From Mitsuokella jalaludinii DSM 13811 (lineage in GTDB: Bacteria > Bacillota > Negativicutes > Selenomonadales > Selenomonadaceae): DNA of 44,737 nt. Within the stretch, counting starts at the first letter, position 1; the number at the start of each line of letters is the position of its first letter. Below are positions 1 through 44,737 of this stretch, one piece after another. The stretch spans positions 1 to 44,737 of the forward strand of contig NZ_JNKR01000017.1 of assembly GCF_000702905.1 (NCBI RefSeq). The letters run 5' to 3'. The notes under the pieces are model-generated. The model ran no database searches, had not been told where the DNA came from, and worked only from the letters and a program-made list of their open reading frames with translations. A program made the position numbers and the translations under genes.

Positions 1-180
1 ACAGGCCTCGGCTTCTAACAAGTTCACCTGTTTCCACCGACACAGTTCCCTTAAGATTTGACCAATCTCGTACCGCTTCTGACCATAAAAGACCTTTCTT
101 CTGTATTTAGGGGCAAATACAATATGATATTTACACTCCCATTTTGTATGTGATAAACTATGTACATCGTAATCTTTCAT
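1..180 (-). CDS. tnpA: IS200/IS605-family transposase TnpA, N-terminal part (cut by window edge)
   Basis: The 60 codons visible encode a protein beginning MKDYDVHSLSHTKWECKYH and continuing with IVFAPKYRRKVFYG. This is the characteristic N-terminus of the small (about 130-150 residue) Y1 transposases of IS200/IS605 elements, which move single-stranded DNA as a dimer. The HUH histidine pair and the catalytic tyrosine lie beyond the left edge, so activity cannot be judged. The ATG at 180 follows a strong AAAGGAGG at a normal distance. The AT-richer codon use differs from the GC-rich neighbours, as expected for a mobile gene. It sits just downstream of the proS terminator and reads in the same direction. 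Confidence 0.9.
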   Translation of the reverse strand, partial: MKDYDVHSLSHTKWECKYHIVFAPKYRRKVFYGQKRYEIGQILRELCRWKQVNLLEAEAC

Positions 181-11270: not shown

Positions 11271-12485
11271 ATGAACTTATCGATCAAGATCTTCATCGCG
11301 CTCGTGCTGGCCGTCATCGTCGGCCTGATTGCGGGCGAACCGGCACTGCCGTTCATCAACTGGTGGATCGCCCCGATCGGCACGATCTTCATCAACCTCA
11401 TCAAGATGATGATCGTCCCCGTCGTCCTCTGCTCGCTCGTCGTCGGCATGACGAGCCTCGGTGACACGACGAAGCTCGGCCGCATCGGCATCAAGACGAT
11501 CCTGCTCTACCTCGTCACGACGGCTATCGCCATCATCATCGGCTTCAGCGTCGCAGGCCTCGCGCATCCGGGCCTCGGCCTCCAGATGACATCGGACGCT
11601 GTCGTCAAGGTCAAGGAAGCGCCGTCGATCATGCAGGTCTTCGTCGCGATGGTCCCGGCTAACCCGGTCGCTTCGATGGCCAAGGCGGATATCCTGCCGG
11701 TCATCGTCTTCGCGCTCTTCATCGGCGTCGGCATCCTCAAGGTCGGCGGCGAGCGCGCAGACATCCTGATCAAGTTCTTCGACGCCTGCGCGGAGGTCTC
11801 CTACAAGATCATCGGCATCGTCATGAGCTTCGCTCCTATCGGTGTCTTCGCCCTGCTGCTGCCGGTCGTCGCCAAGAACGGCCCATCCGTCCTGCTGCCG
11901 CTGATCTCCGTCATCGCCTGCGTCGCCGTCGGCTGCCTCATCCATGCGGTTGCCGTCTACTCGACGCTCGCCAAGGTCTGGGGCGGCCATACGCCGGCAC
12001 AGTTCTTCCGTGGCATGAGTGAGGCGATGCTGATCGCCTTCACGACTTGCTCGAGTGCAGCGGCGCTGCCGGTCAACATGAAGAACAGCCAGGAGAAACT
12101 CGGCGTCTCGCGCGATGTCTCCTCCTTCGTCCTGCCGCTCGGCGCGACGATCAACATGGATGGCACGGCACTCTACATGGGCGTCTGCTCCCTCTTCATC
12201 GCGAACGTCTTCGGCATCGACCTGACGTACGGCCAGATGGCCATGATCGTCCTGACGGGCACGCTGGCCTCCATCGGCACGGCAGGCGTCCCGGGCGCCG
12301 GCCTCATCATGCTCGCGATGGTCCTGCAGAGCGTCAACCTCCCGATGGAAGGCCTCGCTCTCGTCGCCGGCATCGACCGTGTCCTCGACATGTTCCGCAC
12401 CTGCCTGAACATCACCGGTGACGGCGCCGTCGCCATCGTCATGGATCAGGAAGAAAAGAGATACGCCAAGAAGCAAGCTGCGTAA
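11271..12485 (+). CDS. Dicarboxylate/amino acid:cation symporter (DAACS family)
   Basis: This 404-residue membrane protein belongs to the GltP/DctA/SstT family, which imports glutamate, aspartate, serine or C4-dicarboxylates with Na+ or H+. It shows the hairpin-1 serine-rich motif TTCSSAAALPVNMK, then PLGATINMDGTALYM, and the TM8 block GDGAVAIVMD near the end. About eight helices and two re-entrant loops are predicted. Substrate cannot be fixed by eye. AAGGAG at 11258-11263 favours the ATG at 11271 over an in-frame GTG at 11262. It is monocistronic, with its own promoter and terminator. Confidence 0.93.
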   Translation: MNLSIKIFIALVLAVIVGLIAGEPALPFINWWIAPIGTIFINLIKMMIVPVVLCSLVVGMTSLGDTTKLGRIGIKTILLYLVTTAIAIIIGFSVAGLAHPGLGLQMTSDAVVKVKEAPSIMQVFVAMVPANPVASMAKADILPVIVFALFIGVGILKVGGERADILIKFFDACAEVSYKIIGIVMSFAPIGVFALLLPVVAKNGPSVLLPLISVIACVAVGCLIHAVAVYSTLAKVWGGHTPAQFFRGMSEAMLIAFTTCSSAAALPVNMKNSQEKLGVSRDVSSFVLPLGATINMDGTALYMGVCSLFIANVFGIDLTYGQMAMIVLTGTLASIGTAGVPGAGLIMLAMVLQSVNLPMEGLALVAGIDRVLDMFRTCLNITGDGAVAIVMDQEEKRYAKKQAA

Positions 12486-12513
12486 TCGCTTCCCACAACG
12501 ACACACATTACAA

Positions 12514-12542
12514 GAAGCCTCCTGCATGGCAGGGGGCTTTTG
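12514..12542 (+). terminator. Terminator of the symporter gene
   Basis: AAGCCtCCTGC-ATGG-CAGGGGGCTT followed by TTT, 30 bp after the stop codon. Confidence 0.85.
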
Positions 12543-12595
12543 ATTTGCAGGTGATTTGCGGATTCAGATTCGATTTACATCGAGTCATATAAGAC

Positions 12596-12785
12596 GCCGC
12601 AGCGGGCAGACAACACTGCGCAGGGCAGGCTGCTGAAAGAATTTTTTTGCCCTTCAATTTGACCCTGAAAAAGACAAAAACGCGCTGCGCTTGGACGCTT
12701 GTCTTTTTCAGGGGATCTGGTCGGCAAAAAAATTCTTTCTTGACGCAGCTCTGCCAATGCTCCGCTTATGTCTGCCCACTGCGGC
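12596..12785. repeat. Long multi-helix hairpin element, copy 1
   Basis: Four nested helices stack on one axis. P1 is 12596-12612 with 12769-12785 (16 of 17 pairs, the remaining one a G-U on the minus strand). P2 is 12624-12633 with 12745-12755 (one bulge). P3 is 12635-12651 with 12723-12739 (17 of 17, AT-rich). P4 is 12663-12677 with 12699-12713 (15 of 15). The 21-nt terminal loop contains AAACGCGCTGCGCTTGGACG. Asymmetric internal loops carry AACACTGCGC on the left and ATGCTCCGCTTA on the right. It is far too long and regular for a simple terminator and no T run follows. Confidence 0.85.
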
Positions 12786-12919
12786 TCAGTTCCTTCCCGC
12801 CCTATTCACTCGCTTCATTCATCTTCTTTTTTGCAGCTTCCATGAAACGAGATGAAGCCTTCTGTCAACACACGGAACTGCCTGGCTATCTCGATGTCCG
12901 AAGGCTCAGTTGCTCGAAA

Positions 12920-13118
12920 GACGGCGGCACCAGCACCCCGTTAGCGGAGCGTTCAAATTCCTGCGTGAAGAAGCGATTTTTGTCTTCCTCTCATGCCCCT
13001 AGAAAAGAGCAGCCGTTCAAGCGCAGCGCGTTTTGCTCTTTTCTAGGGATTCATTGGAAGACAAAAATCGCTTTAGCAGGAATTTGCCGCGCAGCGTTGG
13101 GGTGCTGGTGCCGCCGTC
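12920..13118. repeat. Long multi-helix hairpin element, copy 2 (inverted relative to copy 1)
   Basis: It has the same plan as copy 1. P1 is 12920-12939 with 13099-13118 (20 of 20). P2 is 12954-12964 with 13076-13086 (11 of 11). P3 is 12971-12988 with 13056-13073 (18 of 18). P4 is 12997-13011 with 13034-13048 (15 of 15). Read on the minus strand, its terminal loop is AAACGCGCTGCGCTTGAACG, nearly identical to copy 1. The internal loops again hold AACGCTGCGC on one side and AACGCTCCGCTAA on the other. Helix sequences differ from copy 1 but always on both sides, so pairing is kept. Confidence 0.85.
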
Positions 13119-13197
13119 TCGCCATGCTGGATGTCACGCAGTCCTGCACAGCGCAACGTTGACAAGCAGCTACGGCGCCTCCCCATGCGAGATGGCA

Positions 13198-13237
13198 ACA
13201 AAAAAGCCGCCTCTATCCAAGAAGCGGCTTTTGACGG
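13198..13237 (-). terminator. Terminator of the amino acid permease gene
   Basis: AAAAGCCGC and GCGGCTTTT arms enclose a 13-nt loop, with a T run on the minus strand, just beyond the permease stop at 13245. Confidence 0.8.
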
Positions 13238-13244
13238 ATTCGAT

Positions 13245-14624
13245 TCAGTGAAGTGCACGTGCGGCGCTGGTGGCGCGGCGGTGCTGGCGCAGGCGGTACC
13301 AGGCCATCGGGAATACGAGCATGGGGACGCCGGCGTAGAGGGCCTCGCGCAGCTCTGGCTCGAAGACCATGACGACGAGGCAGAAGACCTGTGCCCAGAT
13401 GCCGAACAGCGTGACATACGGGAAGAACGGCGTCTTGTAGCGCAGCGCCCCTTCCGTGCCCTCGGCGATCTTGCGCTTGCGGCTGCGGTACTCGCTCCAG
13501 CAGATCGAGATCCAGGCAATCGCGCCCGTGAAGCCCGATACGGCCAAGAGGTACGTGTAGAGCGCTGAATCCGGGTCAAACGAGTAGAGCAGGATGACGG
13601 CCCAGCACGCGCAGATCGAGACGAGGATGGAGCGCGACGGCATGCCGTTCTTGTTGATGTGGCCGAGCGTGCTCGGGGCCATGTCCATGCGCGCGAGCGC
13701 ATGCAGGGCGCGAGCCGCACCGTAGAGGCCCGAGTTCGAGCACGAGATGGCCGCCGTCAGGATGACGAAGGCGAAGAACGCGCCGAAGCCCGAAAGGCCG
13801 TACTGCGTGACAGCTGCCGCAAAGACACTCTCATCGAGGCCCGCCTTGTCCCAAGGCAGGATGGAGATCAGGAGCGAGATTGGGATGATGTAGAGCGCGA
13901 TGATGCGCCATGTCACGTTGCGCACCGCAATCGGGATGCTCTTCTCCGGCTTCTCGCACTCGCCGGCGGCAAGGCCGATAATCTCCGTGCCCTGGAAGTT
14001 GACGAGGATGATGACCATCGTCAGCACGATCGACCAGTAGCCGTTCGGCGCGAAGCCGCCGCTGCCGAGAAGGACCTTTGTGCCGATATAGCCCTGATCG
14101 CCGATGAGGCCGAGGCAGATGAGGCCGGCCACGATACTGAAGGCTGCAAGAGCGATGATCTTGATCAGAGACAGCCAGAACTCACTCTCGCCGAACTTAT
14201 CGACATGGAACAGATTGAGAATCGTCACCAGGAGTCCGAAGAACACAGCCCACCAGAGCTGGCTGACTTCTGGTATAAAGTTATTCATGATGATGCCAGC
14301 GGCAATCATCTCGGATGGAACGTACGCAACCCAGGTCGTCCAGTAGGCCCAGCCCACACCGCAGGCCCAGGTCGGAGAGATGTGCTCCCTTGCATACGTG
14401 ACAAAAGAACCCGATACAGGTTTTTCCACCGCCAGCTCCGCGAGGCAGAGCATGACGCAAAGCACGATGACCCCGCCCAAGAGATAGGCGAGGATCGCGG
14501 CCGGGCCCGCTTTTTCGAGAACATACCCGGTGCCGAGGAAGTAACCACTGCCGATGACCCCGCCCAGCGAGATCAGTTGCAGATGGCGATTCTTTAACCC
14601 TCTGTTCATTTTCGACTCGTTCAT
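13245..14624 (-). CDS. Amino acid permease (APC superfamily)
   Basis: This 459-residue polytopic protein has 12 predicted helices. It shows the APC signature in helix 1, LISLGGVIGSGYFLGTGYVL, where GxGxG-type backbone binds the amino acid carboxylate. FQGTEIIGLAAGECEKPEKSIP around residue 220 is typical of the amino acid transporter (AAT) branch of GabP, LysP, AroP and CycA. Substrate is not deducible. The ATG at 14624 has only a weak, close AAGG upstream; Met6 is an alternative. An extended -10 (TGCTATACA, near 14670) may be its promoter. It is divergent from yigZ. Confidence 0.92.
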   Translation of the reverse strand: MNESKMNRGLKNRHLQLISLGGVIGSGYFLGTGYVLEKAGPAAILAYLLGGVIVLCVMLCLAELAVEKPVSGSFVTYAREHISPTWACGVGWAYWTTWVAYVPSEMIAAGIIMNNFIPEVSQLWWAVFFGLLVTILNLFHVDKFGESEFWLSLIKIIALAAFSIVAGLICLGLIGDQGYIGTKVLLGSGGFAPNGYWSIVLTMVIILVNFQGTEIIGLAAGECEKPEKSIPIAVRNVTWRIIALYIIPISLLISILPWDKAGLDESVFAAAVTQYGLSGFGAFFAFVILTAAISCSNSGLYGAARALHALARMDMAPSTLGHINKNGMPSRSILVSICACWAVILLYSFDPDSALYTYLLAVSGFTGAIAWISICWSEYRSRKRKIAEGTEGALRYKTPFFPYVTLFGIWAQVFCLVVMVFEPELREALYAGVPMLVFPMAWYRLRQHRRATSAARALH

Positions 14625-44408: not shown

Positions 44409-44412
44409 TTAA

Positions 44413-44527
44413 CCGGCAACTTCCTATCCTCCCAGTCCGTCTCCAGACAAGTACTTTCGGCCTCTGAATGCTTAACTACTGTGTTCGGTATGGGAACAGG
44501 TGGAACCATTCAGGCATCATCACCGGA
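44413..44527 (-). rRNA. rrf: 5S ribosomal RNA
   Basis: The minus strand carries the conserved core CCACCTGTTCCCATACCGAA CACAG, then AGTTAAGC and CGAAAGTACTTG. The 5' CCGGTGAT and 3' GTTGCCGG ends pair to form helix I. Length is about 115 nt. It follows the 23S gene by a spacer of about 70 nt (44528-44599). Confidence 0.95.
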
Positions 44528-44599
44528 TATTCTATTTGAATGCTTGCACATTCAAAACTATACAGAAGAAACTACTCTGCGAACACTTCAGTTCTCTAG

Positions 44600-44737
44600 T
44601 TAAGCCCTCGACATATTAGTAGTAGTCAGCTTCATGCCTTGCAGCACTTCCACATCTACCCTATCAACCTTGTCTTCTTCAAGGTGTCTTACTAGCTTGT
44701 GCTATGAGATACTTCATCTCGGGACGGGCTTCACGCT
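44600..44737 (-). rRNA. rrl: 23S ribosomal RNA, 3' end (partial)
   Basis: The minus strand shows the terminal domain VI sequence of 23S: GTTGATAGGGTAGATGTG..., then AGCTGACTACTACTAATATG and the closing CGAGGGCTTAAC. The gene continues past the right edge. The exact 3' end is uncertain by a few bases. Confidence 0.92.

Follow-up and report, generated by a model that had tools for sequence, protein, structure and literature searches.

The two long hairpins that lie head-to-head between convergent genes in the 44,737-nucleotide stretch of Mitsuokella jalaludinii DNA analysed here (the window) probably belong, as old copies, to a MITE-like family of palindromic DNA elements that are short, non-coding and mobile. 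The gap that holds them (Table 1) lies between the end of a plus-strand gene at 12485 and the 3' end of a minus-strand gene at 13245. The original prediction, made from the sequence alone, had described two inverted, related hairpins in a gene-free island, and this description holds: the gene caller places both between genes, and their common hairpin plan is beyond chance, with MFE values of -104.8 kcal/mol for copy 1 (z -9.95) and -131.0 kcal/mol for copy 2 (z -14.06) that none of 200 shuffles equalled in either case. One ORF in the mechanical ORF list (12647-13162) spans the hairpin region. The proposed helix lengths were recovered as well. P1 of copy 2 comprises 21 consecutive pairs, P3 of copy 1 has 16 consecutive Watson-Crick pairs in a 17-bp frame (17 in the MFE fold), and P2 measures ~10 bp in the MFE folds of both copies. 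The terminal loops are nearly identical, reading AAACGCGCTGCGCTTG(G/A)ACG in both, and the side words and the helix plan are also common to the two copies, while the helix sequences differ. Elsewhere in the window, an IS200-like Y1 transposase is matched by a fragment at the very edge (positions 7-144, minus strand), and positions 44411-44737 (minus strand) hold a 5S rRNA and the 3' end of a 23S rRNA.

Table 1. Coordinates of the two hairpins, their parts and nearby features in the window, and of a second repeat at related loci.
Feature	Position	Strand	Remark
Hairpin copy 1 (P1-P4 and tip)	12596..12785	+	covariance-model E 1.5e-39 for core 12605-12776
Copy 1 P1, 5' arm	12596..12612	+	3' arm 12769-12785, 16/17
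Copy 1 P4, 5' arm	12663..12677	+	3' arm 12699-12713, 15/15
Copy 1 tip word AAACGCGCTGCGCTTGGACG	12678..12697	+	contains GCGCAGC on the complementary strand, matching GC(GNA)GC
Copy 1 conserved bulge TTGAC (family TTnAC), between P2 and P3	12740..12744	+	
Copy 1 3' junction word AATGCTCCGCTTA (family GCTNCGC)	12756..12768	+	
Hairpin copy 2, opposite orientation	12919..13119	-	covariance-model E 9.7e-37 for core 12933-13105
Copy 2 P1 arm	12919..12939	-	partner 13099-13119, 21/21
Copy 2 P3 arm	12971..12988	-	partner 13056-13073, 18/18
Copy 2 P4 arm	12997..13011	-	partner 13034-13048, 15/15
Copy 2 tip word AAACGCGCTGCGCTTGAACG	13014..13033	-	
Terminator-like hairpin 3' of the left gene	12513..12545	+	context, outside the element; by eye
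Terminator-like hairpin 3' of the right gene	13202..13232	-	context; by eye
Second ~170-bp repeat	L078:9361-9527, L077:6419-6594, L073:9213-9369, L074:9071-9252		
Second ~170-bp repeat	L072:9293-9495, L076:1474-1627, L084:13845-14022		

With up to three mismatches allowed, the tip word has 17 matches in the 2.41-Mb genome and none in a reversed control, and the same kind of hairpin surrounds all 17. A covariance-model search, proposed with the original prediction, was run with a model built from these copies and returned 18 full copies in the own genome as well as matches in 11 of 59 other genomes. The relatedness with compensatory helices first noticed between two copies thus extends to 17 loop matches and 18 model matches in this genome and to 88 places in a wider alignment. 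A lack of further copies, or covariation that faded on alignment of more copies, would have spoken against the original prediction; further copies exist, and the covariation grew stronger instead. In the 17-copy alignment, 92.7% of 848 cells are paired and 34 of 50 pairs have changed on both sides; the covariation score is 0.471, a value that none of 500 shuffles reached (0.146) and that compares with no more than 0.121 when the partners were slid. Both controls favour the structure, because it was derived from the same 17 sequences. The 88-copy set, obtained from 109 rows after removal of 21 that matched the same place on the opposite strand, is less biased than loci found by their tip, although its model was itself built from tip-matched copies. 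Seventeen of the 18 own-genome copies are intergenic, and the remaining one (L074) is overlapped by a probably spurious ORF call on the opposite strand. At 190-230 bp and without coding capacity, the element has the dimensions of a MITE (70-300 bp); a coding element was considered for L008, whose frame stays open across the hairpin, but most of the 17 copies have stops or length changes that disrupt the frame. Weak 48-bp matches to the model also occur in series with ~100-bp spacing in this genome, three at G000:C3:48685-48925 and two at G000:C2:103463-103622.

A second repeat of ~170 bp is palindromic by eye and contains GCGAAGC; in five of its seven places (Table 1) it follows the hairpin element downstream at no more than 150 bp. 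A ~440-bp block consisting of hairpin and second repeat is inverted between two Mitsuokella species (L226:2904-3345 versus L078:9119-9562). A gene segment flanked by hairpin copies likewise has opposite orientations in different species (L072:7634-8990 versus L229:3816-5172), which indicates that the elements mark rearrangement.

Across 60 genomes, searched with the covariance model under stricter filters, 12 including the own genome were matched, all from the same bacterial family; the element was found in 11 of 36 other genomes of that family, with no match in the other 25 or in 23 genomes from other families of the class. Copy number is patchy, ranging from 18 places in M. jalaludinii and 16 in M. 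multacida DSM 20544 to a single one in a third genome of the genus (G001). The hosts of the hairpin family are bacteria of the gut, the rumen and the mouth. A search with the tip pattern reached further and hit at least 116 stretches in named genomes, those among the matches listed including Selenomonas, Centipeda, Mitsuokella, Lachnospiraceae, Eubacterium, Blautia, a Bacteroidales MAG and others. As the pattern is expected ~4 times by chance in the collection at equal base frequencies, most of the matches listed are relatives. Among the 128 listed (L085-L200), where identity of the tip is given by construction because the loci were found by it, 106 contain at least 40 symmetric pairs, compared with 31 of 600 random positions; the rest are 10 matches near a sequence end and 12 interior misses. 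Long symmetric hairpins also occur in 31 of the 39 matches listed from records labelled outside Selenomonadaceae, though single MAG records in this set may be misbinned. Viral carriage was dismissed, the one tip match in viral contigs (27 symmetric pairs) being taken as chance. No prior description of the family was found in the literature searched, which comprised listings and the openings of abstracts, and four 14-letter tip words were absent from the papers searched.

The unpaired words, the tip among them, are conserved. In 87 copies, the inner pair of the tip (positions 7-13) is GC in 74, AT in 10 and CG in three, without any G-U; the closing pair is C-G in 86, and T and C flank the free middle base. 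On the complementary strand the pattern reads GC(GNA)GC, and the GNA loop is described in PMC4686876 as an extraordinarily stable DNA mini-hairpin. Counting the tips, the 18 own-genome copies hold 45 GCTNCGC words on the plus strand against a single one on the minus strand. GNA mini-hairpins were considered for all three words of the element and are consistent with the data at the tip only, since at the two junction words the outer pairs are conserved only inconsistently; there, such a structure is speculative.

In Selenomonas massiliensis, a family member that shares the tip has spread recently and did so as a MITE. This species contains 16 copies at 92-98% identity over 218-261 bp, besides shorter ones, which are related to the Centipeda locus L130. 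Alignment of 20 S. massiliensis copies with L130 delimits a 227-bp unit with the ends GGGTCTATGGCAACTGTTACGGA and TCCGTAACATTTATCATAGTGCC; its other end, read inward, is GGCACTATGATAAATGTTACGGA and pairs with GGGTCTATGGCAACTGTTACGGA as ISL3-like terminal inverted repeats (TIRs). Insertion sequences of the ISL3 family generate target-site duplications (TSDs) of 8 bp. Duplications of this length, with an identity of at least 6/8, flank 12 of the 21 aligned copies (six of them at 8/8) but only 6 of 420 mismatched pairings, and the nine copies below 6/8 include L307 and L312-L315, whose ends are unlike those of the 227-bp unit. A 99-bp deletion derivative retains both ends. Two empty counterparts were found in other species (L182 versus L111 and L154 versus L200), where the imperfect end repeats agree at 8/11 and 8/12 letters by eye; with these two sites, in oral Selenomonas and Centipeda, the element is multi-copy and varies in presence between close genomes, as is typical of MITEs. 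Two S. massiliensis copies (L323:1153-1540 and L324:1201-1590) carry apparently the same further insert inside the hairpin.

Among candidate sources of a transposase, a Centipeda ISL3 locus has one end, GGCTCTTTGTCAATAGTTACGGA, that is similar to the TIR of the 227-bp unit; a matching other end was not found there, and two S. massiliensis ISL3 copies end differently. One ISL3 gene in Centipeda was rejected as a partner, as it adjoins a TIR-like word but on its outer side, and nine regions with the TIR word in S. massiliensis contain no recognisable transposase in the gene calls by eye. No autonomous element whose two ends both match was found, and PF01610 (ISL3) was matched in only 7 of the 20 genomes in which tip or model had revealed the hairpin element. 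A linked mobility gene was also sought by all-versus-all comparison of ORFs from 131 sources; the largest clusters, from 17 and 15 sources, are unannotated, and no transposase stood out. A match to a catalogued insertion-sequence end would have contradicted the original reading of the hairpins, and an ISL3-like end was indeed seen, albeit in the related genus and not at the window copies.

The S. massiliensis element and the window copies have the tip and the general plan in common, but not the helix sequences and, by eye, not the TTnAC bulge. None of the 18 copies in the own genome has an exact 8-bp TSD at the stem boundary or a separate outer TIR beyond the P1 stem. Exact 8-bp direct repeats within 100 bp accompany five of them (both L076 copies, L077, L078 and one of L082), none at the stem boundary, and those of L076 go along with the tandem duplication of this locus. 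In the sole case of presence and absence in Mitsuokella (L228 versus L080), the P1 arms are still in place and the difference may stem from a deletion between GGGCCC repeats; the L076 site in M. multacida looks like a product of deletion. As candidate empty sites, L144/L109 and L193/L154 were not clean, nor was the junction at L163, where the aligned relatives G061 and G063 are without the element; four copies in G005 have inverted ends with no clear TSD by eye. For Mitsuokella, the evidence of movement is weaker than for the related genus. A family of mobile palindromes, originally named as the main alternative to a structured RNA, is favoured by the patchy copy number, the recent spread with 8-bp TSDs in a related genus and the two empty sites, whereas the lack of a TSD at the window copies speaks against it. 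We infer that the window's own copies were once mobile as well, and that the Mitsuokella copies would have spread in a way comparable to the 227-bp unit.

What exactly moved is a separate question. Among element pairs less than 1 kb apart, 18 are oriented '+-', none '-+' and one '++', the last being the tandem duplication. Some of the '+-' pairs share flanks across strains or species, which leaves ~14 independent ones by eye, and genome G017 adds six more. In Selenomonas ruminantium and S. ruminis, the stems of the two partners differ in sequence and the pairs are enclosed by an outer inverted repeat (for example AATTACAGTTTGTrGG), which in L105 differs on both sides. These observations would suit a head-to-head pair that is itself the mobile unit, with single hairpins as broken units. 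This reading is conceivable but rather doubtful, because the recently mobile unit in S. massiliensis is a single hairpin with TIRs and TSDs, spacer lengths vary, no TSD was seen around the pairs by eye, and other arrangements, such as '-+' at L072, occur farther apart. Between the paired hairpins of L105, L141 and L147 (S. ruminantium and S. ruminis), another, distinct repeat (GGATGAGGT...ACCTCATCCGCCCC) is nested.

The strong covariation raises the question of whether selection acts on a folded RNA. Twelve pairs of copies at matching places in two Mitsuokella species, with long flanks mostly 84-92% identical, were compared on the basis of the G000 fold and without polarising the direction of change. 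In these, 693 base pairs are unchanged and 42 have changed on both sides to another Watson-Crick pair; the one-sided changes comprise 47 to a mismatch, 17 to G-U and 14 from G-U to Watson-Crick. The double changes are bursty: 41 of the 42 fall, in blocks, within four of the 12 pairs, whose true orthology is uncertain, whereas the other eight show 28 changes to a mismatch, seven to G-U and one double change. Double changes are absent from copy 1 of the window; copy 2 shows 17 relative to its partner, with which it is only 65% identical and may not be truly orthologous. One pair differs almost solely in the 5' arm. Decaying static copies together with bursts that affect both arms fit copying or replacement from arm to arm better than slow selection. 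Template switching between the arms of inverted repeats is described as homogenising arms and inverting spacers (PMC8604942) and as producing multi-base compensatory changes (PMC8794818), and may be the cause of the bursts in this hairpin family.

A functional structured RNA (an sRNA or 3'-UTR element) that many loci express and whose stems are kept by selection for RNA folding is quite improbable, and the original claim of selection on structure is weakened: the covariation itself stands and is very strong, and the loops are conserved, but changes in the eight burst-free orthologous pairs are mostly one-sided. G-U pairs are few, with 188 (3.6%) against 5011 Watson-Crick pairs in the stems of the 88 copies, compared with 11.7% G-U in shuffled sequence, and four against 382, with 22 mismatched cells, in P2 and P3 of the 17 copies. 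This rarity is not unique to DNA, as small comparators indicate (2 of 33 pairs in a SAM riboswitch, 7 of 36 in 5S rRNA). Of 103 elements, two overlapped by ORFs and three lacking a flanking gene were set aside, leaving 98 contexts, orthologues included, of which 32 are convergent, 57 tandem and nine divergent. An upstream gene is co-directional at 62 of the 98 copies and divergent gaps are rare, which speaks for an RNA, yet 32 of these 62 are convergent, where either orientation counts. In tandem gaps, the element runs with the genes 30 times and against them 27 times, and this absence of an orientation bias argues against a strand-specific transcript. Finally, neither the window nor 19 related loci matched any Rfam family.

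Repeats of the REP/REPIN kind, moved as folded single-stranded DNA by an HUH Y1 transposase (IS200/IS605 or RAYT), are least likely of all: although the tip has a folded-DNA signature, close pairs are nearly always head-to-head, reminiscent of the inverted arrangement of REPIN doublets, and the own genome has 14 Y1_Tnp matches, six of the 12 bearing genomes (G015, G018, G022, G023, G027 and G033) have none, among them G023 with 17 places (G023 and G027 being incomplete at 91% and 82%), the units measure ~190-230 bp instead of 20-40, and the recent S. massiliensis unit carries 8-bp TSDs, which Y1 elements are not known to make.

For the preferred reading, old copies of MITE-like palindromes, a mechanism can be outlined. 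One stem arm might serve as template for the other during replication, by template switching or hairpin mismatch correction, which would rewrite both arms at once with Watson-Crick pairs and so keep complementarity while the sequence changes. The unpaired words (tip, TTnAC bulge and GCTNCGC) would be kept by selection, probably because a transposition or replication protein must recognise the folded single DNA strand. A far-reaching extension, namely a class of mobile DNA across distant gut bacteria that works as a folded single strand, with a d(GCGNAGC) mini-hairpin at the tip bound by a conserved protein, stems of any sequence copied from arm to arm in replication, and head-to-head movement, is unlikely as a whole; if true, it would imply that RNA-like compensatory evolution arises without selection on RNA. 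If the MITE-like reading is right, strong covariation, which usually points to a structured RNA, would here be largely a by-product of the copying and spread of palindromic DNA, and searches for new RNAs could misfile such families. The hairpins would also offer a natural test of arm homogenisation by template switching in bacteria, and a tip sequence that distant gut bacteria have in common.

Like the named bacterial MITEs, among them RUP, NEMIS, ERIC, YPAL, Nezha and QMITE as presented in PMC3733652 and PMC10969869, the hairpin family is short, non-coding, mostly intergenic, multi-copy and palindromic, and one of its lineages has TIRs and 8-bp TSDs. It differs from them by its nested helix plan, conserved unpaired words, stems that differ on both arms, head-to-head pairs, and a single tip word found in Selenomonadaceae, Lachnospiraceae and other MAGs; a tip able to form a DNA GNA mini-hairpin, head-to-head pairing and arms that change in concert are unusual for a MITE. 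The TIR of the S. massiliensis and Centipeda unit resembles one end of a Centipeda ISL3 locus, and the 8-bp TSD is also that of ISL3 insertion sequences, but the hairpin element has no transposase inside and the window copies have neither a separate TIR nor a TSD. With REP/REPIN sequences and their RAYTs it shares palindromes thought to act as folded DNA (for REPs, see PMC3733652) and inverted doublets, but it is several times longer, and half of the bearing genomes are without a Y1_Tnp match. Hairpins maintained by template switching (PMC8794818, PMC8604942) are the closest parallel in the way the stems change, with several compensatory changes per event and homogenised arms; in these sources they are described in RNA genes and in yeast coding genes, whereas here the process is proposed for a mobile family.
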